A DNA stretch of 64,000 bases from Salminus brasiliensis. Its lineage: Eukaryota > Chordata > Actinopteri > Characiformes > Bryconidae. Under the pieces are notes generated by a model. The model saw nothing but the letters and a program-made list of their open reading frames with translations, was not told the origin of the DNA and did no database searches. Positions 5,248 to 63,946 of this stretch are shown piece by piece; the stretch's first letter is position 1, and every line of letters begins with the position of its first letter. The DNA lies in assembly GCF_030463535.1 (NCBI RefSeq), contig NC_132896.1:31976680-32040679 (forward strand). The letters run 5' to 3'. The position numbers and the translations under genes were made by a program.

Positions 5248-5797
5248 TACACTAAATGGACAAAAGTATTGGGACATCTGCTTATTCTTTGTTTGTTCCT
5301 GCTTTTGTTGGAGTAACTGTCTCTACTGTCCAGGATAGAAGTCTTTCTACTAGATTTTGGAGAAGCATTGACATGAGGATTTGATTGCATTTAGCAAGAC
5401 ATGAGAGTTAGGGAGGTCAGGATGTTGGATGCTCACCACCTCATCTCATCCCCAACTCCACAACTCATCCCAAAACTAAGTGAATGGAGCACCACCATCC
5501 ATCATTCCAGAGAACACTGTTCTTCCACTGCTCCACAGCTCAATCAATGCTGGGGGGCTTTATACCCCTCTAGCCAATGCCTGGCATTAGGCAGCATGGT
5601 GCCAATAGGGTCATGATGTTTATCTGCTCCAGAGAGTCCTATTCTATTGGCAGTACTTCTCTACAGGGACTAAACAAGCTGTGTATGTGTGTGTGTGTGT
5701 GTATTTGCTCATCTGCATCAGCAATGGGTGCAACTTAAAGTAGCTGAATGCATTCATTAGAAGAAGGTGTCCACAAACATTTGGACATATGGTGTAT
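5248..5797 (+). repeat. MITE family A, copy 3, near full length
   Basis: Both ends are present: CACTAAATGGACAAAAGTAT at the left and TCCACAAACATTTGGACATA at the right, with TA on each side. Internal landmarks are in the usual order, including TGTGAGGATTTGATTGCATT, the two-sided 'gctccacagctcaa' core, a GTGTGTGT patch near 5684-5702, and the GAATGCATTCATTAGAAG block. This is one of the best copies for defining the family. Confidence 0.85.
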
Positions 5798-6019
5798 TTC
5801 TTAACTGGCCACTTTATTAGAAACCCCATCAAAATCTAATGTACTTGGTTTGTTGGTACTTATGTGCTGCAGTAATTTGCATATTGATGGGTAAGGTTTT
5901 ATTAAGGGGAGAGGGAGCAAGATCTCCAAAACTGGGAAGGGGGCTTAAACACATCGGAATACGTCTGCTCTGGCCATCATCATTGGCCGGTTTCTGACCA
6001 CAGAGCCATGGCTACTGGA
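5798..6019. other. Short spacer, nothing recognised
   Basis: No feature was seen between two MITE copies. Confidence 0.4.
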
Positions 6020-6225
6020 TATTGGATACCAGAAATCGGCTGCTGGCCTATAAAGCTCCTCAGCATTGAGCTGTGGAGCAGTGGAAGAGCTGTGTTCTCT
6101 GGAATGATGGATCGTTGGTGCTCTATCCAGTACTTTTGGGATTAGTCGTGCCAGAGCCAATCATCCAACATCAGAACCTCACTGATGCTCTTATGGTTAC
6201 AATCAGATCCTCACAGCAATGTTCC
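6020..6225 (-). repeat. MITE family A, copy 4, reverse-oriented fragment
   Basis: The complement carries the core block about 'ctgctccacagctcaatgct' and the block naming 'ccaaaagtactggat', so this is an internal family A fragment in the opposite orientation. It abuts the TIR element that follows. Confidence 0.75.
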
Positions 6226-29858: not shown

Positions 29859-32800
29859 CTACAGAGGGAGGGGGGGTGGGGTGGGGGAGAGATTCTCCAT
29901 GAATAACAACATAGCTGCCAGTTTTAAACATACACTACATAGACAAATGTATTGGGACACCTGATGAGTTTCTCCTGCAATTGTTGAAGTAATTGTCTCT
30001 ACTGTGATTATGATTTTAGAGGAGCATTGCTGTGAGGATTTGATTCACTAACAAGAGCGTTAGTGAGGTCAGGACGTTGGATGAACTGCTCCACAGCTCA
30101 ATGCTGGGGGCTTTATACCCCTCTAGCCCACGCTTGGCATTAGGCAGCATGGTGCCAGTAGGTGCCTGTTGATTTGCTCCAGAGAGTCTAATTCAATTGG
30201 CAGTACTTCTCTACATGGACTATACAAGCTGTGTGTGTGCGCGTGCATTTGCACATCTGTGTCAGCAATTGGTGCAACTTAGCAAAGCAGCCGAATGCAT
30301 TCATTAGAAGGGGTGTCCACAAACGTACCTTGAAATCAAAGGTATAGTTGGTGTAAGGCATGAGCCCGTTCTCGTAGGTACTCTTGAGCTTGAACCCGTG
30401 CGTTATCCTGCTGTTCGATGAGCCGTTCTTGCCGTTGCAGTTGAAGTTGGTTAAACTGTCGCTGTAGCGCAGCTCTTTGAAGTCTTTGTGCGTGCAATCC
30501 ACACCACCTGTGCTCAGGAATTCCACCACACCTGCACAAAGACGCAACTTATAAAAACACAAGCAGGCAAGCAAACGTGCCTTTAAAGCAAACACAAGTG
30601 CACCTGCACAGGGAGGAACACCGGCAAACCGCATTCCTTAAATTGATAGGGACATCAAAGCGGCTCATTCCTCAACTGAAGGAGGATCTCTGAACTGTGT
30701 GATCACAGAGCTACAGTTCTCGCTTGTGAGAAATGCAGAAAACTCAGGTTTTACTCTCCTGCTAGTCGGTCTTCTTACCGACTGACCAAGAAACAGGACC
30801 TGCTCTTCAACTCCTCTACAGCACTTCACGTTCCTTCTTGGGGGGGAAAAATGGCTTCTGAGGAATGCATCTAAAATTAGTCCCATTAGGAAGTTGCTGA
30901 AAACCCTGATGGTTGGCTGTCATTCTGCTTGGGATCCTCTATTTCAGTCTGCCTATCAAAGTGCTAATTACGTTCTGAGCACAAGCTGTTAACACGATGA
31001 TCTCAACAGGCCCTGCTATAATGGTCTTCTTGACAAAGTGCTAAAATTCACAACAGTCTTTAAAAACCTCTCGCCACATGAGGGCACTGCTTAAAACTGC
31101 TACATTTACAGCTAAAACCACTTTACAAGAACGAGCATGGCAACAGAGTTACCAGAGAACAAAAGCTACCAGCATGACTGGTGCCCGTAATGGTCCCGTA
31201 ATGGTCCCGTAATGGTCCCCACCATCCTCAAATGTCTGTTGACTGCAGCATTAGCATGTGAGGACCAACCTGAGTCAGGCAGCGAGTTGAGATCAGCACA
31301 AAGCACCAGAGGAACGGCATTGGTTTCCCCAGACACCGAGGAGAGCTTGAGGCTGCGCGTGGCTTTGTCCACGATGTTCTTCACCTCCGAGAGGAACATC
31401 ATGGTCTGCACCAGCTTTACGTCCGAATACTCCGGGTCCCAATGCATGTGGGCGTTGGCCACCAGGAGGAGCTGTTTCTCCATGCCGTGAAGAGACTTGC
31501 CGGCTATACACAAAAGGAGATAAGGCCACAATTAACTTAAAGTTCCTTGAGGACGTTTTAGAAGTTTGAAATGGTGGAGAAACCTCTTAAGGTGCTTTGA
31601 GGAACCTTTTTCTACTAAAAAAAAAAAAAAACAAAAAAAAAAAAAAACCTTCTCTTGAAGGTTCCTCAAAGCACCTTAAGAGATTACACAGACCCACACG
31701 TCAGGTATTCACCTTCAAAACTACATTAACATCAGTTTCATAGGCCCTAAAATAGAACCTTGTGGGACTACACAGAATATGCTGAATGTTCTGAATTATT
31801 TTTTACATTGTAATTTCAGAAACCTAAGATTCAAGGGTTTACGAGAGCACTAGAATTAAGTAGGACATGTTTACTGACGCACAGTCCAACAACATTAAGA
31901 TGATGTACTGCATGTCTGTATAGAAGATATACAGTAAATTTTATTATACAACATGCATTACAAAAAAAAGGTGTTGCACGTTTTGTATGCAAGTGTACAA
32001 GTGTGTCTGTGTGTATAGGCAGAGTGTATTCCACAAAATAACCCCCATTTCCAAATATTCCACATTTAGGTTCTCCTAATGTACATACAGCACTGTGGCA
32101 AAGTATGAGCCCCCTGTAAAAAAAATGAATGAAAAGCTATATATACGGGCAGTACAATAAAACAGCACACAGAAAGTCATGGTTCTCCATCACTGTGTTC
32201 TTTAAAACATCTCCAAAGTAAAAATCTAGAAATCTACCAGTGATAAGTTTTGCTTAAAAGTGCGGAGCAGATCTTTTTGGGCACCTCATCACAGTTCCCT
32301 CTAAACTGATTCTGGAGTGCCTAAGGTCTAGGAATGCACCGATCCATCTTTTTTTATCCGATACAGATACCAATACATGAACTTTTCGTATAGGCCGATA
32401 GCCGATATCAGTCCAATACCATTGGACCACCGTTCAATTATTAAACCATAAACCTGACCCTCTGGGAGAGACTTAAGGCATCAGGATTGACGTAATCATT
32501 ACTTTACTATCTTGTAAAACAAACTATAACAAATGAACACAATTTTTGTTCACTTGTCACTAAAATTAATAAAATGTGCTGGACCTCAGCAACATGCTGT
32601 CTGGGCACAGGACTGCAGCTCCTCCCTTCTCGGTTCTTCTTATATGGCAGACAAGCTGGATTACTCACTGATAGCTGATAACAGGCAAAGGGCACCATGC
32701 TGGTTACATAGGGGGAGTTTGCTGTTTGCTATGGTTGTGAAGCCTAGAATACCGGTGGTGCAAGAACTGAGTTCTGTGAACAGACCGGCCCTTTGGGTCA

Positions 32801-35800: not shown

Positions 35801-38800
35801 AGTGGTTGCTAAGGTGTCACTAGTTTATTTGTATCATCATGACATAAGAGAGGTGCACAAACATTTGCACCCTATTCTTTTCATTTCTGTGGAACAAGCC
35901 CGAATCACACAATCAGACCAGACCTCCAACAATCTGGAGCTGCAATGTGCAACCAGACCGGAAATGTGTGAAGAACCCTTAAACTGCTAAAGAACCTTTA
36001 AAATCAAGTGAAACTTAGTGGAGGTTCTTCATTCCCACTTTATCATATATTACAAACAGTCTCTATGAACCAAAAAGTGGTTCTATGGCATCGCTCAAAT
36101 AACAGGGTGCACCAGCCTGCACCAGATGGATTTGCATACTTGCAAGATAAGACACCCTACAACATGCAGCATCCTCAATGCTCATGGCTGAGGAAGCCTT
36201 TGAAACCTACTGCGTTTAATAGCACCGGCAAGATTGTCCAAAAGGTAGTTCAGCAGTCGGCGGGTGCCATCTGGTTCCTGGTACAGACTCATGAGATCTT
36301 GTGCAAGTGGATTTCCTGTGGGGATACGAATCAGAGTTATGCTACCATCCAGCCTCTTCAACATGGTGGGGTCCTCAGGATGGAGAGGTTACCACATCAA
36401 TGGTCACACTCACCTTTTAACCCCAGTGTTTGTAACTGAAACAGTTTCCCCAATTCGAAAGGCAGAACCCGCAACTGGTTGTTATTTAAAAGCAGTTCCC
36501 TGTGGAGGACACAGGGAAATGCACACTTTAGGACAAGCTCTCCAGTCACAGAACTTACTGCAGGGCCTAGCTTGCTTATTACACTTCATAAGAAAGACTG
36601 GTACAAATAACAGATGCTGGCAGTCAATGTGCACAACCTGTATATTCACCTACCAATGATCTTGCCTCATTCTTGGGTGGGCGAATAAATATAAAGGCCT
36701 TTTGGATTTAGAAATGAATGATTGTTAATCATTAATGTATTTAATTTCCCTTGATCTCTCAGAGCAGTGCTCCCTAACCCTAGCCATGCAGACTCACAGT
36801 CTGGCCATGGGCCTCCAGGATAAGGGTTTGAGACAACGACCATAGAGTTATCTACACCGATCAGCCATAACATCCGCACCACCAGCCTAATATTAAGTAG
36901 GTCGCCCTTGTACTACCACAACAGGTCTGACATTCTAGGCATGGACTACACAACACCTCTGAAGGCATCCTGTGGTGTCTGGCGCCAAGACATGAGCAGC
37001 AGAGCCTGTAAGTCCTGCAAGTTGTGAGGGGGAGACCTCCATGAACATTGCAGGCTCACATGTGGTCCTTTCTTGGAGCACTTTTGGTAGGTACTGACCA
37101 CTGCACACCGGGAACACCCTACACGACCTGCCTGATGTTTGAGATGTTCTGACCCAGTCGTCGAGTCATCACAGTTTGGTTGGCTTCTCAAAGTGGCTCA
37201 GATTCTTACGTTTGTCTATTTTTCCTGCTTTTAAGAACAGTTTAATCATTCAGTCACTTCAGACGTCAGAGATGCTAAGGTCATGGCTGATCGGTGTATG
37301 TAAATTACCTCAGTTTTGATTGGCTGCTTAGTATTATTTCCCAAAAAAATGAAGAACAGTTTTCCATGACCTGAGTCCTGATCCCTTTAATTAAACAAGA
37401 TAAAATAAGTGTTTCTACTCTCTAATGCTGGAGTTCAGCAAAACTCATATCAGCACTAGGACAGGCTAGTAGGACCCGTTCATCATCTTCATTTGCACTG
37501 CAACACCACACTCACCTGAGAGACACCATAGTGCCAAGCTCTGCTGGCAGGCTCCTGATCTTATTGGACGACAGGTCCAGGTACACAAGGTTGTGTAGCT
37601 TGGCAATGTCAGGTGGGATACGTGACAGCGAGTTGTCACTGAGGTGCAAAGCGGTGAGGTGAGTGAGCGACCACAGGCCTGAGCTTAGACTCCGTACTTT
37701 ACCTGATAGACAAAAGAAAAAAAATGCAAAGCAGAGGTGAGAATCTCCAGCTAATCAAAATCGGATTGGAGTTTAAATTAAATATGCAGTTTAACCATTT
37801 AATAGGCATTAAAATAAAAAAAGATATACATTTTGTTTTTTTACTAGATTCTCTGGCCCACATTTCACACAGGATTGCTATGGCTTCTTTTTCAACTTTA
37901 TAAGAAACCCTTTTATATACGTATAAAAACAAAAACAGCACAATTTACAGGCACTACAGGGATACTATAGGGATTACAGAGATTTCCGATTAGCTCAGTC
38001 GGTTAGGGCCTGGTGCTAATAACAACATGCTCCCCATACAGGCTACAAATGTCTATGTGCAGTGGTGGTGGTTAGAGCACTAAGCTAATGAAGACTATTG
38101 ATACTCGGTTTCGCGTTTGCTCAATAGTGTGAAAGTGTGTTTACTGCATTGGTAGGGTAAGTAGACTTCCATCCATGTCCACAAATAGTGATTATCTTTG
38201 ATACCTGGATACTACGGGCACTTACACCTCCTGCACACTGTGTCCAATACTCACCACTTATTTCAAGCTCAGCCCAGTAGGATTTTTTCCCACTTGCTGC
38301 TTCTTCACTGGACATAATTGTATACATCCGCCTGGGATCCGGCGGCTCATACTTCTCCTTGGGCATTCCTGGACCACTGCGCAAGGGGAAAAAAAAGAAA
38401 TCATCAAAATCACAAATACAAACTGTTCATTCTTTAGGATGTGAACTTTCCATAGTCACCACCTATAAAGTAGATCCACATTTTCTTTAGATCCAGTTTT
38501 TCTTCTTGGGATTAGGTTATTTACACCATCAAGAAATATTTCTGCTGATATTACGGTTCTAACAGTACCATCAACACCTCGTAGCTAATCACCGTTCACT
38601 GTTGAACCAGACAGTCTGGGGCTTGACCTCAAGCCTAACCACAACGTCTGAACCGTCTCAAAAGCCCATGCTGATCGCTCAGTCACTCGAGGACTGTATC
38701 AGTGTTTAGCACAAAGACCCTAAGAAACCGAGCTCCAACCATGAGAGCTACCTGGAATACCAACAGGGTGGACCACAGACCAGTCTTCTTACACAGAGCT

Positions 38801-40133
38801 GGAAGAAAACGGTCCAAGTGCAACTCCTCGGCATGCATCCTGCATTAACATGAGCTATTAATATGCCAATAAACTTTGAATAAATCTGCTCTGAACTTTG
38901 CAAGGTCTTAACAAGTACTGCCACCTCACCATAACATAGCTGCACTTTGTGAGTCGCTGATTTTCCAGGTTGGTAAAGGAGAAAAAAAGAGACCCTAGAG
39001 AAGCAAGGTATAAAAAGAAGATTTCGGATACGTAAACCGTTTCCTCAGTTTAACAAATCCATCCATTTATTTATCCAACTTCTTATCTTCTACCTTCTGG
39101 TCTGGGTCACTCTGGGCCAGGAGCCCTGTTGGAATCACTGAGCACAGGGCAGGAATACCCACCAGGACAGGGTGCCAGCCAAACACAGGGGATAACACAC
39201 ACCCATGTAGTCAATTTAATAAATAGTTCATTTAGATTAATAAAATATTCATTCAATTTAATAAATAGTTCATTTAGATTAATAAAATATTCCCTTAATT
39301 TAATAAATAGTTAATTTAATTTAGTCCACACTTCCTCAATTGAACAAAACAGTTCCTCAGTTTGGAGAGCCCTTTTATAAATATTAATTTTTTTAACTTT
39401 GATACTTCAGGACCTCTCTAAAAACACCACTAGTGCTAATAAGCTACATTTAATCAATATATTGGATGACTGGCCTGTAAACAGTTAGTTAGCTCGCTAG
39501 CTGGCTGCATGTGTACTAAACTCTGTATACTTTATTAATATTAGCTATCTAGCTATATTCCTTAGCAAATTGCTTAATTTAACTGTTGGAGGTGTCGTGT
39601 TTAACACGATTACCTAATATATACTTCTGTAATTGTGCTGGTGCGGTTGTTTAGTAGTTGTTTACTTTAGCCAGACAAGCTAAGCTAAGCTAAGCTAAGC
39701 TAGGCTACGCTAACACGGCCAGGCTGCGGAAGCAGGCTATCTAGCAGGCTAAAAACATAAATAAAATTTATTTTATTATTAATAAAAAGGGCTTAAATTA
39801 AATTAAGTGGCTTGGATTTATGGTAATTAAACGATAAATTAATTGTTTTAATTTTATTTTTAGTACCTAAGGCACATTTGGTAGCTGTGGCAAATCCAGG
39901 TCCGGAAACTCCAAATCCGCTCCATGGTTTTGCTCCAACTGCCTGGGCGGCTCTGCTGCAGCAGAGCCGCCCAGGCAGTTGGAGCAAAACCATGGAGCGG
40001 ATTTGGAGTTTCCGGACCTGGATTTGCCACCGTAGTATCTCAGCAATAAAAACACCACAACATTCACGGCCTGTGAGAGCTAGGCTAACGTGCTTTCGTT
40101 AAGGACGTACCTGAAGTCTCGGTTATGAACCAT
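29646..40133 (-). CDS. cnot6: cnot6, CCR4-NOT complex subunit 6 (deadenylase), 12 exons, complete
   Basis: Ccr4-type deadenylase: removes mRNA poly(A) tails as a catalytic subunit of the cytoplasmic CCR4-NOT complex. Joined coding parts: 40133-40111, 38376-38255, 37702-37516, 36499-36414, 36315-36211, 35294-35226, 35054-34897, 34213-34059, 33354-33200, 31503-31270, 30531-30329, 29858-29646. All junctions are GT-AG and the phases close. From the usual MPKEKYEPPDP start the protein has 558 residues, close to human CNOT6 (557). An N-terminal leucine-rich repeat segment lies at about 45-150 (LYLDLSSNK-like words) and binds the NOT scaffold. The exonuclease-endonuclease-phosphatase domain covers about 185-540. 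Expected catalytic residues are present: Glu240 (LQEVETEQ), Asp413 and Asn415 (CADLNSLPDSG) and His532 (PSDHFSLF). The words KRIPTEQPPPRSW and PLAQDLMSLYQEPDGTRRLL match CNOT6 rather than CNOT6L. Which teleost paralogue (a or b) cannot be told. Confidence 0.96.
29930..30325 (+). repeat. MITE family A, copy 8, inside cnot6 intron 11
   Basis: The left end is CACTACATAGACAAATGTAT, and the right end runs to GTGTCCACAAAC and stops at the splice donor. The middle is shortened. The intron (29859-30328) is 470 bp, so the element makes up about 85 percent of it. The terminal dozen bases of a normal right end are missing and replaced by the donor. Confidence 0.85.
30329..30531 (-). CDS. cnot6: cnot6 exon 11
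   Basis: 203 bp encoding VVEFLSTGGVDCTHKDFKEL, then HGFKLKSTYENGLMPYTNYT and FDFK. The donor GTACGT directly joins the end of a MITE that fills the following intron. Confidence 0.95.
31270..31503 (-). CDS. cnot6: cnot6 exon 10 (catalytic Asp413)
   Basis: 234 bp encoding ANAHMHWDPEYSDVKLVQTM, then the catalytic LVLCADLNSLPDSG. Acceptor GTGTATAG. The donor is GTTGGT, an unusual +3 to +6 sequence, but the frame and protein homology leave no other choice. Confidence 0.94.
31580..31686. repeat. Hairpin-forming repeat with A-rich loop in cnot6 intron 9
   Basis: The left arm (31580-31611) reads AACCTCTTAAGGTGCTTTGA then GGAACCTT, and the right arm (31657-31686) is its near-perfect inverse, AAGGTTCCTCAAAGCACCTT then AAGAGATT. 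The loop is almost pure A. It belongs to the GGAACC dispersed family. Confidence 0.85.
32060..32300. repeat. MITE family B, copy 1, in cnot6 intron 9
   Basis: Begins ACATACAGCACTGTGGCAAA and shares CACAGAAAGTCATGGTTCTC-like and ACATCTCCAAAGT blocks with 33455-33840. The TACAGCACTGTGCAAAAGT start resembles ends of fish Tc1-like elements. Confidence 0.65.
32330..32887. mobile_element. Non-autonomous hAT-like element in cnot6 intron 9
   Basis: Terminal words are inverted: AGGAATGCACCGATCC at the left and GATCAGTGCATCTCTACC at the right. Both sides are flanked by AAGGTCT (32323-32329 and 32888-32894), a 7-bp match of an expected 8-bp target duplication. Interior has TATCGG-type words inverted around the middle. 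No transposase is present. Confidence 0.75.
33200..33354 (-). CDS. cnot6: cnot6 exon 9
   Basis: 155 bp encoding FSVVQKHTVEFNQIAMANSE, then AMLNRVMTKDNIGVAVLLEL and RREMMEMT. Donor GTGAGT. Confidence 0.95.
33455..33840. repeat. MITE family B, copy 2, in cnot6 intron 8
   Basis: Begins ACATACAGCACTGTGCAAAA, with AAGTCATGATGGTTCCTAAT and CTTCTCCAAAGTTCTTCTCG blocks. It aligns in order with 32060-32300 and extends further right. Confidence 0.65.
34059..34213 (-). CDS. cnot6: cnot6 exon 8 (catalytic Glu240)
   Basis: 155 bp beginning EVETEQYFNYFLVELKGQGY, with the metal-binding Glu240 as first residue, then GFFSPKSRARTMSESDRKHV and DGCAIFYKTEK. Acceptor TCTACAG, donor GTAAGT. Confidence 0.95.
34395..34632 (+). 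repeat. MITE family A, copy 9, 3' half, in cnot6 intron 7
   Basis: Carries the core CTGCTCCACAGCTCAATGCT, the TTGGCAGTCCTCCCCTACAG block and the right end TCCACAAACATCTGGACATG. Confidence 0.8.
34897..35054 (-). CDS. cnot6: cnot6 exon 7 (start of nuclease domain)
   Basis: 158 bp encoding ALFSVMCYNVLCDKYATRQL, then NWEYRKKAIMQEILSCNADV and ISLQ. The MCYNVLCDKYA word opens the exonuclease-endonuclease-phosphatase domain. Donor GTACCA. Confidence 0.95.
35226..35294 (-). CDS. cnot6: cnot6 exon 6
   Basis: 69 bp encoding PTEQPPPRSWIVLQEPDRTR and PA, the linker between the repeats and the nuclease domain. Acceptor CCTTCAG, donor GTAATT. Confidence 0.93.
35495..35830. repeat. Degenerate minisatellite in cnot6 intron 5
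   Basis: Repeated variants of TGCTATGGCGTTGCTAGGTG and TAGTGGTTGCTAAGGTGTCA, about 20-30 bp per unit and strongly diverged. Confidence 0.7.
36211..36315 (-). CDS. cnot6: cnot6 exon 5
   Basis: 105 bp encoding NPLAQDLMSLYQEPDGTRRL through NLAGAIKR. The donor is GTAGGT. Placing the junction there yields KRI-PTEQPPP, as in vertebrate CNOT6, which fixes the boundary. Confidence 0.93.
36414..36499 (-). CDS. cnot6: cnot6 exon 4 (leucine-rich repeats)
   Basis: 86 bp encoding ELLLNNNQLRVLPFELGKLF and then QLQTLGLKG. Acceptor TCCACAG, donor GTGAGT. Confidence 0.95.
36853..37298. mobile_element. Tc1/mariner-type non-autonomous element in cnot6 intron 3
   Basis: A perfect 16-bp inverted end pair, TACACCGATCAGCCAT at 36853-36868 and its inverse at 37283-37298, with the outermost TA as likely target site. 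The remaining 446 bp have no intact frame. The element at 7571-7945 shares the AGCCATAACAT end. Confidence 0.85.
37516..37702 (-). CDS. cnot6: cnot6 exon 3 (leucine-rich repeats)
   Basis: 187 bp encoding LWSLTHLTALHLSDNSLSRI and DIAKLHNLVYLDLSSNKI, two and a half leucine-rich repeats. Acceptor TATCAG, donor GTGAGT. Confidence 0.95.
38255..38376 (-). CDS. cnot6: cnot6 exon 2 (conserved start)
   Basis: The acceptor is TTGCGCAG. The conserved start ATG is at 38366-38364, giving MPKEKYEPPDPRRMYTIMSS and further to AELEISG. The donor is GTGAGT. Of the 122 bases, 112 code from this start. The start context has G at -3 and C at +4, weaker than the upstream ATG in exon 1. Confidence 0.95.
39209..39325. 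repeat. AT-rich tandem repeat in cnot6 intron 1
   Basis: Two and a half copies of a roughly 45-bp unit with AATTTAATAAATAGTTCATT and AGATTAATAAAATATTC. Confidence 0.85.
39887..40030. repeat. Perfect 144-bp palindrome, zero spacer, in cnot6 intron 1
   Basis: The 72 bases 39887-39958 are exactly complementary, in reverse, to 39959-40030. I compared all 72 pairs and found no mismatch. Complementarity stops outside (T/C at 39886/40031). The centre is CTGCTGCAGCAG. The arms are GC-rich and otherwise single-copy. It lies 75 bases inside intron 1 from the exon 1 donor, so the pre-mRNA would carry a 72-bp perfect hairpin. It may be real or an assembly fold-back artefact. Confidence 0.95.
40111..40133 (-). 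CDS. cnot6: cnot6 exon 1, possible alternative start
   Basis: A canonical donor (TTCAG followed by GTACGT) ends this exon at 40111; its transcribed part extends upstream as 5' UTR. An ATG at 40133-40131 is in frame with the known start in exon 2 and would add the 11 residues MVHNRDFSGPG. Its context is strong (A at -3, G at +4). An in-frame TGA lies 27 bases upstream. Whether it is used as start is inference. Confidence 0.6.
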
Positions 40134-40620
40134 GCTGACAAATAGGACTGAAATCGATCACTTAGAGCCTATTTATCGTGTTAATTGATCGTCCACAAGC
40201 AGATCGTCGTTAATGATGCCTATTCCCAGCAGCAGCAGCAGCAGCACAAGCAGGCTAGACAATAACCCAGAGCATCCAGCTAACGCGCCAGTCTTAAACC
40301 CATAGATACGTTTTAAAGCCTTTTTTTGGGGGGATTTACCTTTAAGAGCATACCAACCGCCCGATGTGAGCGTCGTGTCCTGCTGTGGGCTTGGGCTTGG
40401 GCTTCACTCGGGTTTGCGCTGGTGGATTGATTAGTGTCACGGTAAGCAGACGGACATGCTGGCTGGGTTCAGTCAGTCCGTCAGTCCTGCTGCTCATGAA
40501 GGAAGCGACACTTCAACTGAGCTTCAGCTCTGAGCCACGCTGGACCAAAATAACCCTCAGTGATCCCAATGTGGGGAGATGTCCAACGATTTCACATAAA
40601 TAAAGAGGTATCTAGCTCTA
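40134..40620 (-). promoter_or_regulatory. cnot6: cnot6 5' UTR and promoter region
   Basis: Upstream of the exon 1 donor the sequence is repeat-poor and GC-richer than the intron, with a GCA trinucleotide run at 40228-40247. The transcription start cannot be placed from the sequence. No TATA box at a convincing distance was seen, which is usual for a housekeeping gene. Confidence 0.4.
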
Positions 40621-40879
40621 ACAAGTGCCCATGTGCGCGTTCTGGGACTAACACGTGACTACGAGCTGCTACTCAGGTACAGGTATTCAGGTAAGAAGGT
40701 ATTCAGGTGATTTGTACTTAATCCAAGATGATCCTGAAACCTATGTGGATGCTCAGGACATATTTCCAGATCTGGAGTATTATTATCAACTCAGTTTACA
40801 CACCATGGATCCCAGGCAGAGGATTAGGCCTAACCCCATGACCACAGGTTTGTCGTGCACACCCCTTTAAATGAAGGCA

Positions 40880-41345
40880 TCCAGCTATTTTTGTACTTAT
40901 GTTGCACACATTGCTGACACAGATGTGCAAATGCATGCACACACAGACAAACATCATGAACCTATTGACATCCTGCCTAATAAAGCCAGGCGTGGGCTTA
41001 TGGAGTGGGGGTGTAAAGCCCCCCGGCATTGAGCTGTGGAGCAGGGGAAGAGCTGTTGTGTCCAACAACATCCAATCTCATACTTTTGAGGTGAGGTGAG
41101 GTGAGGTGAGGTGAGGTGAGGTGAGGTGAGGTGGGGTAGGGTGGGGATCATCATCCAACATCCTGACCACACTAATGCTATTGTTGCTGAATGCAATCAA
41201 ATTCTCACAGCAATGCTCCTCCAAAATCTAGTAGGTTGGATAGTCGAGACAGCTACTCTATCAAGGATGCAGGGTGAACTCTTTTAATACCTTTGATTTT
41301 AGAAAAAGACAAAGCATGAGCAGGTGTCCCAATACTTTTGGCATG
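40880..41345 (-). repeat. MITE family A, copy 10, with (GGTGA)n expansion
   Basis: Minus-strand copy between cnot6 and simc1: GATGTGCAAATGCATGCAC block, AGCCCCCCGGCATTGAGCTG core, and the left end TCCCAATACTTTTGGCATG. A GGTGA pentamer (about eight units, 41092-41133) has grown inside the position normally reading CACCTCATC. Confidence 0.85.

Positions 41346-53983: not shown

Positions 53984-54028
<45 letters not shown>
53984..54028. repeat. (TA)n microsatellite
   Basis: Pure TA run of about 44 bp next to a MITE fragment. Confidence 0.95.
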
Positions 54029-60459: not shown

Positions 60460-63400
60460 GCTCTCTCTCTTTTGCTCTGTCTTACTTTATTTTTTTTTCT
60501 GACCCTGTTTACACCTGGTCACTTCATGAATCTTGAGTATCAGGATCTATCTCTAAGGCCGAACCACATAAAAATGCTCTCATCACTCCAATACTAATCC
60601 CATCTCGCAAACCACTTTAGAAGGAGGTCTGAGACGCATTTGAGCCACATGTTATAACAGTGTAAACCCAACCAAACCCTTCCCAGTACAACCAAAACCC
60701 TCCCAATACAACCAAAACCCTCCCAGTACAACCAACCCCCTCCCATTACAACCAAAACCCTCCCAGTACATCCAAAACCCTCCCAGTACAACCAACCCCC
60801 TCCCAGTACAACCAAAACCCTCCCAGTACAACCAACTCCCTCCCAGTACAACCAAAACCCTCCCAGTACAACCAAAACCCTCCCAGTACAACCAACCCCC
60901 TCCCAGTACAACCAAAACCCTCCCAGTACAACCAAAACCCTCCCAGTACAACCAACCCCCTCCTAGTACAACCAAAACCCTCCCAGTACAACCAACCCCC
61001 TCCCAGTACAACCAAAACCCTCCCAGTACATCCAAAACCCTCCCGGTACAACCAACCCCCTCCCAGTACAACCAAACCCCTCCCAGTACAACCAAAACCC
61101 TCCCAGTACAACCAAACCCCTCCTAGTACAACCAAAACCCTCCCACTACAACCAACCCCCTCCCAGTACAACCTAAACCCTCCCAGTACAACCCAAACAC
61201 CAGTGCATCAAGCTTATTTCCATATTCCATCCAACACAGCGATTAGATTTCAGTCTGACGAACAGGAGATGCTTTTGACCACCAAATAAGACCCCGTTTA
61301 TACCGGGACACCTTATGTGACTGGTATCTGGATTGGATTCGGATCAGATTTTAGCCACATGCGTTTACACTGGGTAGTCAAACGTGTCTTCGGGTTAGTC
61401 AGACTGAAATCTGATTGCTAAGTGGAATGGAATATGCAAATTTGCTCTTTGTGCTGCAACTTTTACTGGTGTTTGGGTTGAGCTGGGAGGGATTTGGATT
61501 GTACTGGGAGGGGTTTGGGTTGTACTGGGAGGGGTTTTGTTGTACTGAGAGGGGTTTAGGTTGTACTGGGAGGGGTTTAGGTTGCACTAGGAGTGTTGGG
61601 TTGTACTAGGAGGGGTTTAGGTTGCACTGGGAGGGGTTTGGGTTGTACTACGAGGGGTTTGGGTTGTACTGGGAGGGGTTTAGGTTGTACTGGGAGGGGT
61701 TTTGTTGTACTGGGAGGGGGTTGGGTTGTACTGGGAGGGGTTTAGATTGCACTAGGAGGGGTTTGGGTTTGAGTGATGGGATCTGTATCTGGTTTAAATG
61801 CATTCTGGGTGTGTTTACACTGGCGGTTTTATGTGGCTTGGCCTTATCCTTGTCCACAGGAAAATCCAGGTGTAAACATCCCCAAAGCGCATTGTGATCG
61901 GATTACTATCGGATCACTCAAACCACATGTGGAGGTGGACAGAGACGGATCTTTCCCACATTTAATACAAGTGTAAACACGTTCATTTCAATAATAATTA
62001 CTGTGGATCTTGGCTTCTATGTCCCTCGCTGCCCTTGCAGATTAAGTAGTCCATCCCATTTTCTAATAGAACCATAATGGGAATGTGAGAACCACCTTAT
62101 TCCACCACTTTGTAGAAGAACCACCATGTTTCCTCCCGGAGCTAAACGGTTCGGATGAGAATCTGTTGTTTACAGGAAGTAAAAGGAAAGGAGGTAAGCG
62201 TTGGTGTGTTTTTTATGCGGGGAAGTAAAATCAGAGCCCATCTGGTCACACTGGAGATGCATTTTAATGCCAGGTGTAAACAGAATTTGGTCAAAACGGA
62301 TCCAGATATTATCCAGATACAGACCGAATATTAATGGAAGATGTAAACAGGCCCTAAATGTATGTGTGGCTAAAATCCTATCAGGAGACAGTCCAGATAC
62401 TAGTCACATGAGGTGACCTGGCATAAATGAGGTCTCTGTCTCTCTCTCTCACCCACTCTCTTTCTCTCTCTCACTTTGTCTCTCTGTCACTCTCCCTCCT
62501 TTTTTGTCTCTCTCTCTCTCTCTCTCTCTCTTTTAGATGAGGAGACCCTGAGGCTGATGCAGACTCCGCGCTGTTCGCTTCCAGACGATGCAGGTGGTCA
62601 GACTGGTCCTCCCTCAGCGCCACACTCCGAGCCTCGAGGCCAAAGGATGAAGAGAGCCGTGTCGACCTGGAGCCGGAGAAACATCAACTGGAGGTTCGAG
62701 TGGTTCTGCTCCACCGTCCTCTTTCAAATCCATCCTTCAAACCCTTACAGCTGCAGCAACTGCTTCATCGGCCTGTTCATCCTCTAATCTTCTCACTAAT
62801 CTTCTCACACACAGTGTCGGAGCAGTGTGGAGACGTGGTGTTTAGGGTTAATCTGCAGACAGTGTCAGTTCTGCTGTAGCAGAATCCACTACAGGCTAAA
62901 TCAGGATACTGAAGCATGTATAAGGCTGATATCCAGGAAACATCTCACCCATTCATAGTCTCTCTCTCTCTCTCTCTCACTCAGGTTGCGCTCTTACCCC
63001 ACCTCCTCCATGCTGCCCCGTGAGACGATTCGCTCGTTGGTGTTCTACGCACTCAGGGTGTGGGCGGAGCCAACACCTCTTGAGTTTCATGAGGTTAGAC
63101 ATTAGTTTAGAATGTAGCATGTTGTGGCTCAGGCCGCCTCGGCGATCTAATGCACTACCTCTATGGCATGGAGGTCATGAGGTCGAATCCCGAGCCATGC
63201 CACTTTGCCATCAGCAGCCGGTGTCTGAGAGAGCACAATAGGCCGTGGGTCTCTGGGTGGGTAGATGGTGCTCTCTCCCCTTATTACTCTAAAAGAGATG
63301 CAATGGCATAGATGTCAGTTAGCCAATGCAGTGAAGCTGGGGTCCTGGGGGTTCCTCCGAGCGTGTCGGCGGCCCAGCGATGCCATATTGGTGGCAGTAT

Positions 63401-63946
63401 TAAAAAATTATAAATTAAATAAAATTATATTTGTAAAATTTAAATAAATAATAAAGGTGCTTCAGTTGGTTCTTGGTAGAAGAACCACTGTTGGGTCCAT
63501 GAAGAACCGTGTTATGGAACCAACAGTGATTCTTCTACTAAGAACCAACTGAAGCATCATCAGTCAAAGAACCATTTAAAGCATCTTCATTTTTCTTCTG
63601 ATTTGACTCATTAGAAAGTTACCTCAACCCCACCCTCGACTCCCTTGAGTATCATGTGGGTGGTGTCATCATTAAGGGCAGGTCCAGACATTCAACCAGA
63701 TTTGGGTTTTAGACCATTCAGTCCAAAACTACTGGTCTGACATCGTACTCTGCTCTGAAACCTAATAGGTTGGAGGCCCAGAGGGTGCAGATCTCCAAAT
63801 TGATTTCTTACATGGTTCCCATGGTGATGGATATCCCTTTGATGGGGTGGGTGGAGCTGTTGGCCACGCCTTTTTCCCCTCTGACCCTGACAGGGCTGGC
63901 GGAGTTCACCTGGACGCAGAGGAGGAGTGGGCATTCAGACAGCCAG
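59320..63946 (+). CDS. mmp25: mmp25-like membrane-type matrix metalloproteinase, 5' half (5 exons), continues beyond window
   Basis: Secreted zinc endopeptidase, in mammals GPI-anchored at the cell surface. Coding parts seen: 59320-59535, 60265-60397, 62537-62693, 62985-63093, 63769-63946; phases close to 264 codons. In order: signal peptide, most likely from the second Met (59377, MKVTLWSVVLVVSSLCG); propeptide (DWLTKYGYLPPPDPSTGQLQ, then AMQNFAGL); cysteine switch PRCSLPD with Cys129; furin site R153-M-K-R156; catalytic domain from about 157, with HGDGYPFDG (223-231) and GHAFFP (237-242). PRCSLPD and the furin site together mark the MMP17/MMP25 pair. YGYLPPP and the FAGL word favour MMP25; MMP17 is the alternative. 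The HExxH exon, hemopexin repeats and GPI signal are outside. It runs head to head with simc1. Confidence 0.88.
59628..60135 (+). repeat. MITE family A, copy 13, full length, in mmp25 intron 1
   Basis: Left end CACTAAATGGACAAAAGTAT, right end TCCACAAACCTTTGGGCATG and GTAGTGTA, TA on both sides, all internal blocks in order. Confidence 0.88.
60265..60397 (+). CDS. mmp25: mmp25 propeptide exon
   Basis: 133 bp encoding DWLTKYGYLPPPDPSTGQLQ, then AVTQAVKAMQNFAGLNDSGA. This is the peptidoglycan-binding-like prodomain. Acceptor TTTGACAG, donor GTAAGA followed by a CT microsatellite (60419-60457). Confidence 0.95.
60663..61196. repeat. 21-bp minisatellite (CCCAGTACAACCAAAACCCT), left arm
   Basis: About 25 units of 20-21 bp on the plus strand. 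Produces the artificial repeat frames at 60594-61171. Closely related to the array at 6429-6803. Confidence 0.97.
61470..61770. repeat. 21-bp minisatellite, right arm, inverted
   Basis: About 14 units of the complement, TTGGGTTGTACTGGGAGGGG and variants. Units here are more varied than in the left arm. Confidence 0.97.
62420..62536. repeat. (CT)n tract leading into an mmp25 acceptor
   Basis: Interrupted CT runs (62433-62452, 62460-62476, 62506-62530) directly precede TTTTAG and so serve as the polypyrimidine tract. Confidence 0.85.
62537..62693 (+). CDS. mmp25: mmp25 cysteine switch and furin site exon
   Basis: 157 bp encoding EETLRLMQTPRCSLPDDAGG and, after a Pro/Gly-rich linker, RGQRMKRAVSTWSRRNINW. 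The acceptor tract is a CT microsatellite ending TTTTAG. The donor is GTTCGA, weak but phase-correct. Confidence 0.93.
62985..63093 (+). CDS. mmp25: mmp25 catalytic domain exon 1
   Basis: 109 bp encoding LRSYPTSSMLPRETIRSLVF and YALRVWAEPTPLEFHE. Acceptor CTCACTCAG after a CT run, donor GTTAGA. Confidence 0.93.
63140..63430 (+). repeat. tRNA-derived SINE, copy 4, in mmp25 intron 4
   Basis: Head GCCTCGGCGATCTAATGCAC with box B-like GAGGTCGAATCCCGAG, core CCATCAGCAGCCGGTGTCTG, then a body to GTTCCTCCGAGCGTGTCGGC and an AT-rich tail. The head is better preserved than in the other copies. Confidence 0.8.
63456..63557. repeat. Hairpin repeat in mmp25 intron 4
   Basis: GGTGCTTCAGTTGGTTCTTG, GTAGAAGAACCACTGTTGG and their inverses ACCAACAGTGATTCTTCTAC, AAGAACCAACTGAAGCATC flank a loop of about 20 bases. 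Only a few mismatches. Angel-like MITE structure. Confidence 0.85.
63769..63946 (+). CDS. mmp25: mmp25 catalytic domain exon 2 (structural zinc and calcium sites)
   Basis: 178 bp encoding VGGPEGADLQIDFLHGSHGD, then GYPFDGVGGAVGHAFFPSDP and DRAGGVHLDAEEEWAFRQP. His223, Asp225, His238 and His252 match the structural zinc ligands. The usual GD before the last His is GG here. Acceptor CCTAATAG, donor GTGAGA. Confidence 0.93.

Follow-up and report, generated by a model that had tools for sequence, protein, structure and literature searches.

The perfect palindrome at 39887..40030 of the window (the whole stretch of 64,000 nucleotides that was analysed) is, to judge from its sequence and that of its relatives, almost certainly the insertion of a non-autonomous MITE, putatively of hAT type, about 154 bp long and consisting nearly entirely of inverted repeat. 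The family is dispersed in the genome, carries 8-bp target-site duplications in some copies, and has arms that are alike within copies and unlike between copies. This mirrored evolution of the family is a real finding. It is probable that the palindrome is a hAT-type MITE copy whose arms are homogenised after insertion by hairpin-templated copying or repair, and correction in place after insertion is, with moderate confidence, the most likely process behind the mirrored evolution.

Results

The two arms of the palindrome, 39887-39958 and 39959-40030 (no strand is assigned to the element or its parts), are 72 nt each, 100% complementary and 0 nt apart, giving 144 bp in all; the original prediction of a perfect spacerless palindrome of this length was therefore right. 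It is the longest perfect palindrome of the window, its arm being more than three times as long as that of the runner-up (53987-54028, 21-nt arms). In 20 single-base shuffles of the window the maximum arms were 0-10 nt (arms below 9 nt were scored as 0), which rules out a chance origin. As single-stranded DNA the palindrome is predicted to fold into one stem with a 4-nt loop (TGCA, 39957..39960) at -100.8 kcal/mol, and the matching apex positions carry arm mismatches in matched-arm copies of the family. Together with its flank, folded as RNA, it gives z = -21.5, and its transcript could possibly serve as a substrate for Dicer or ADAR. In 39000-41000 no microRNA family of Rfam came up to its gathering score, the best being mir-4773 with 62.7 bits versus 100, and the palindrome core sequence had 0 matches in viral contigs. 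Other repeats of the window include an A/T-rich repeat with 21-nt spacing near the palindrome (39211-39336), a second hairpin-like inverted repeat with 43-nt arms, 93% complementary, around a 13-nt spacer (63458-63556), 51-nt inverted repeats, 94% complementary and with 520 nt between them, that may be the ends of another DNA transposon (5494-6115), and tandem repeats of about 20 bp around CCCAGTACAACC in both orientations (about 60650-61724).

The open reading frames place cnot6 on the minus strand, and the best solved-structure match is CNOT6 (7ax1). The stop-to-stop frame at 38121..38426 of the minus strand, which starts MPKEKYEPPDPRRMYTIMSSEEAA, presumably holds the first coding exon; no Pfam family matched it, and the remaining exons are backed by Pfam and solved-structure searches. 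A donor-like site CAG/GTACGT, cut after CAG and with its GT at 40109..40110 of the minus strand, is the probable start of intron 1. The palindrome thus lies close to the likely exon 1, as had been proposed, and would be inside intron 1 if the donor is at 40110, at an offset of about 79 bp and not the 75 bp first given. The element is probably a passive intron insertion; an influence on cnot6 is possible but has no support here. At 31581-31685 the cnot6 region also holds 28-nt inverted repeats, 96% complementary, with 49 nt between them.

When the window's own genome (1.07 Gb, 103 contigs) was searched with the palindrome, the best 40 of 338 candidates were scored. Besides the window copy they comprise 39 copies elsewhere, matched on both strands, and the 40 places lie on 20 contigs. 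These 39 copies are 77-90% identical to the window copy, and all were taken with their flanks for comparison. Because sampling took the 40 candidates most similar to a single perfect palindrome, copies in advanced decay are under-represented; the ranking as such should favour neither mirrored nor one-arm changes. That the arm belongs to no repeat family is correct within the window and fails in the genome. The 39 copies found elsewhere, many with an equally perfect stem, contradict a recent fold-back duplication at this site and make an assembly artefact very unlikely.

Comparison of the flanks at offsets 0-12, in shifts of one, revealed direct 8-bp duplications in the set of 40 copies, set off outwards from the GTGGC...GCCAC ends by exactly 5 bp. 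The mean match was 3.98/8 versus 2.12 in flanks paired between different copies. Duplications matching 7 or 8 of 8 bases were present in 10/40 copies (control fraction 0.0), and the match was below 5/8 in 23/40. A target-site duplication of 8 bp is defining for the hAT superfamily, whose terminal repeats begin CAG/TAG-like; these ten copies carry such a duplication and the window copy has none that is recognisable, the sequences expected on the left (ACATTTGG, 39874..39881) and right (TATCTCAG, 40036..40043) agreeing at 2/8 positions. With its ends set by the family-wide offset, the whole copy would span 39882..40035, about 154 bp. Its outermost 5 bp are degenerate, TAGCT on the left and CGTAG on the right; the family ends variously in CAGAG, CGATG or TAGAG, the outer 5 bp being degenerate, against TAGCT and, from the other side, CTACG in the window copy. 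The family membership of the window copy therefore rests on sequence similarity. The small size, the 40 places on 20 contigs, the inverted arms, the duplications in some copies and a non-coding nature (judged by length) are those of a MITE.

Between copies, about 20% of sites differ. Across the 48 inner arm positions, arms taken from separate copies show a median of 10 differences, while in 26/40 copies the two arms are identical, and in 32/40 each arm is nearer to its partner than to any arm from the remaining 39 copies. Over a 51-site stem, in which insertion columns are left out, own-arm mismatches number 0 in 27/40 copies, 1 in 5, 4-5 in 3 and 11-18 in 5; among 1560 arm pairs from different copies the median is 11 and the minimum 2, never 0. 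When indels are included in a letter-by-letter comparison, the arms remain identical in 25 of the 27 perfect-stem copies. The two arms form a pair for 33/40 copies in a tree of the 80 arms, a tree built on few columns and with open forks. The matched-arm set was defined as the 32 of the 40 sampled copies with no more than 4 arm differences over 53 sites (arm positions 16-68). Relative to the family consensus, changes found in both arms number 221 in these copies, versus 6 confined to a single arm; in the other 8 copies the figures are 30 and 89. Three copies (L024, L044, L046) carry the same insertion in both arms, and in five others the arms are of unequal length, partly from truncated ends. 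Over roughly 300 bp to either side, the flanks of the 40 copies revealed no shared duplicated segments by which the homogenisation could be dated; matches there extended over only 25-41 bp.

The position of the remaining arm mismatches follows the geometry of a hairpin. Among the 26 matched-arm copies of full length, the flanks mismatch at a near-random rate; within the arms, mismatch falls from 18/52 at the first two positions to 9/78 at the next three, 5/130 at positions 5-9, 8/156 at 10-15 and 1/260 at 16-25, reaching 0/1092 at stem positions 26-67 (five rows summed). At the four apex positions it is 10/104, and 9 of these 10 fall on the two arm positions from which the predicted 4-nt loop is made; the between-copy difference rate at the apex is 0.108. 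Since the copies were picked by stem identity, part of this pattern is circular; when one stem half was used to pick the copies and the other half to score them, which picked 33/40 copies either way, mismatches were 6/858 and 8/825 versus 15/132 at the apex. Some of the apex differences arise from loops of differing length or from longer spacers. Five copies (L021, L038, L039, L040, L045) have a centre 11 nt longer between the arms, and their 48-nt inner arms have 0, 3, 2, 4 and 1 mismatches respectively. A protected stem, an exempt loop and a frayed base are what hairpin-dependent correction predicts, and the removal of stem differences with variation kept in loop or spacer, characteristic of an inverted repeat homogenised by template switching, is found in this family.

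If the arms matched only because the copies are young, their duplications should be intact. Seven matched-arm copies have a duplication that matches at 7/8 or better; their mismatches were 4/56 in the duplication versus 1/357 in the stem (p = 0.0014), a strict test that comprises 5 mismatches in total; with looser duplication calls, which possibly include chance matches, the gap was wider. Perfectly matched inner arms were found in 16 of the 23 copies with a duplication below 5/8, and insertion without duplication is also possible for these. The view that perfect palindromes are short-lived does not describe this family. In three less-matched copies (L025, L040, L041) the duplications are nearly intact (1/24) and the stems diverged (30/153), so part of the arm divergence is probably older than the insertion. 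There was no correlation between the integrity of the duplication and the identity of the arms (Spearman 0.12, p = 0.47). A rough steady-state estimate from 34 copies with up to 4 stem mismatches puts the correction rate at about 270 times the per-site mutation rate.

These data bear on a different possibility, that there have been many source elements, each a perfect palindrome of its own sequence, and that the copies are young offspring of different sources. Diverged arms in some copies with intact duplications would fit such an origin; so would several positions at which about 30-60% of copies share one alternative base, resembling old source variation, and close siblings may be unseen among copies that are the best 40 of 338 candidates. 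However, no subfamily structure was detected, the nearest-neighbour distance and the pairwise-distance variance being those of column shuffles (p 0.53 and 0.48), and young copies would not be expected to mismatch at the loop and base yet not in the stem. Duplications more decayed than stems, and perfect inner arms where the duplication is gone, also speak against youth, and we regard this origin as unlikely, if still worth serious attention.

Alternatively, the arms may have been made identical once, during amplification, by a hairpin intermediate like that of Angel, with insertions lacking duplications produced by a route without transposase. The large share of copies below 5/8 agrees with this, and the Angel model, as described in PMC12628747, invokes a folded-back strand. 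Yet a quarter of the copies (the 10/40 above) do have duplications, and in the matched-arm ones these are more decayed than the stem, for which correction after insertion is needed. A single event of this kind thus appears distinctly improbable.

It is very hard to believe that assembly or polishing turned imperfect palindromes into perfect ones: the copies are known here from assembled sequence, but the same 40 include five with 11-18 stem mismatches and three with 4-5, and reads spanning 144 bp should mostly be anchored in the flanks. Weakest of all is the idea that the arms are kept paired by selection because their RNA hairpin yields, for instance, a microRNA or dsRNA. In its favour, the predicted hairpin is very stable and the Made1 palindromic MITEs gave rise to the miR-548 family (as outlined in PMC1784062). 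Against it, RNA tolerates G-U pairs and no mismatch of any kind occurs at stem positions 26-67 in the 26 matched-arm copies, selection would need to act at dozens of unrelated loci, and the Rfam search brought no family to the gathering score.

Certain observations also count against homogenisation in place, namely the window copy without duplication and the five copies with unequal arms. Among common variable sites all four combinations occur in 127/136 pairs, and only 7 pairs are associated at p < 0.05. At arm positions 16-68 of the 32 matched-arm copies, 24/53 positions hardly vary and one varies in 20/32 copies; of three CpG sites, two change on one side only. In-place correction leaves the free combination of variants unexplained. 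Near-free combination, uneven variability and one-sided CpG change suggest either old source variation shuffled by recombination or conversion, or strong hot spots. GC-biased repair was considered and rejected, as it showed a trend only: AT-to-GC versus GC-to-AT was 121 versus 74 among mirrored changes and 38 versus 32 among the one-arm changes of the 8 less-matched copies (p = 0.26), and a test on rare variants gave p = 0.09.

Discussion

Taken together, we think it fairly likely that the arms evolve in place as a single unit, and that hairpin-templated correction, roughly a few hundred times faster than point mutation, preserves long perfect palindromes well beyond insertion and turns private mutations into mirrored pairs. 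After insertion, a strand would repeatedly fold into a hairpin or cruciform, for example as the lagging-strand template, and a mutation in one arm would be copied into the other arm, or corrected against it, via template switching or mismatch repair, so that each stem would change as a whole. Correction would not reach the loop or the fraying stem base, and a copy with too many mismatches would leave correction and then decay.

Long perfect palindromes are considered unstable, yet those of this family seem to persist and even to be renewed. Should their arms be homogenised in place, the many copies would serve as natural reporters, all of the same design, of hairpin folding in the germ line; they would give the folding frequency of chromosomal DNA, the stem length involved and the way in which mismatches are resolved. 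In that case, identical arms would be no proof that an element is young.

Palindromic MITEs, such as Angel and Made1, and the homogenisation of short inverted repeats by template switching are already described. In the titles and abstract openings retrieved from an open-access library, no description was found of arm homogenisation across a MITE family in most of its sampled copies. Angel of zebrafish (Izsvak et al. 1999, as described in PMC12628747) is likewise a fish MITE with a self-folding single strand, and a fold-back step is invoked for its amplification; that model, with which the comparison is by description, deals with amplification, whereas the present data favour correction once the copy has inserted. 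Made1 (PMC1784062) is also a short, near-perfectly palindromic MITE that forms a hairpin if transcribed; it is 80 bp long and mariner-derived, in contrast to the family here, which is about 154 bp with 8-bp duplications and is known here from DNA sequence. A parallel in process comes from work on template switching, which homogenises short inverted repeats (PMC8604942) and maintains hairpins (PMC8794818). There, as proposed here, one arm templates the other and differences between arms vanish; the passages concerned describe this for yeast genes and RNA hairpins (PMC8604942, PMC8794818), whereas here it would extend to 32 of the 40 sampled copies of one dispersed transposon family.
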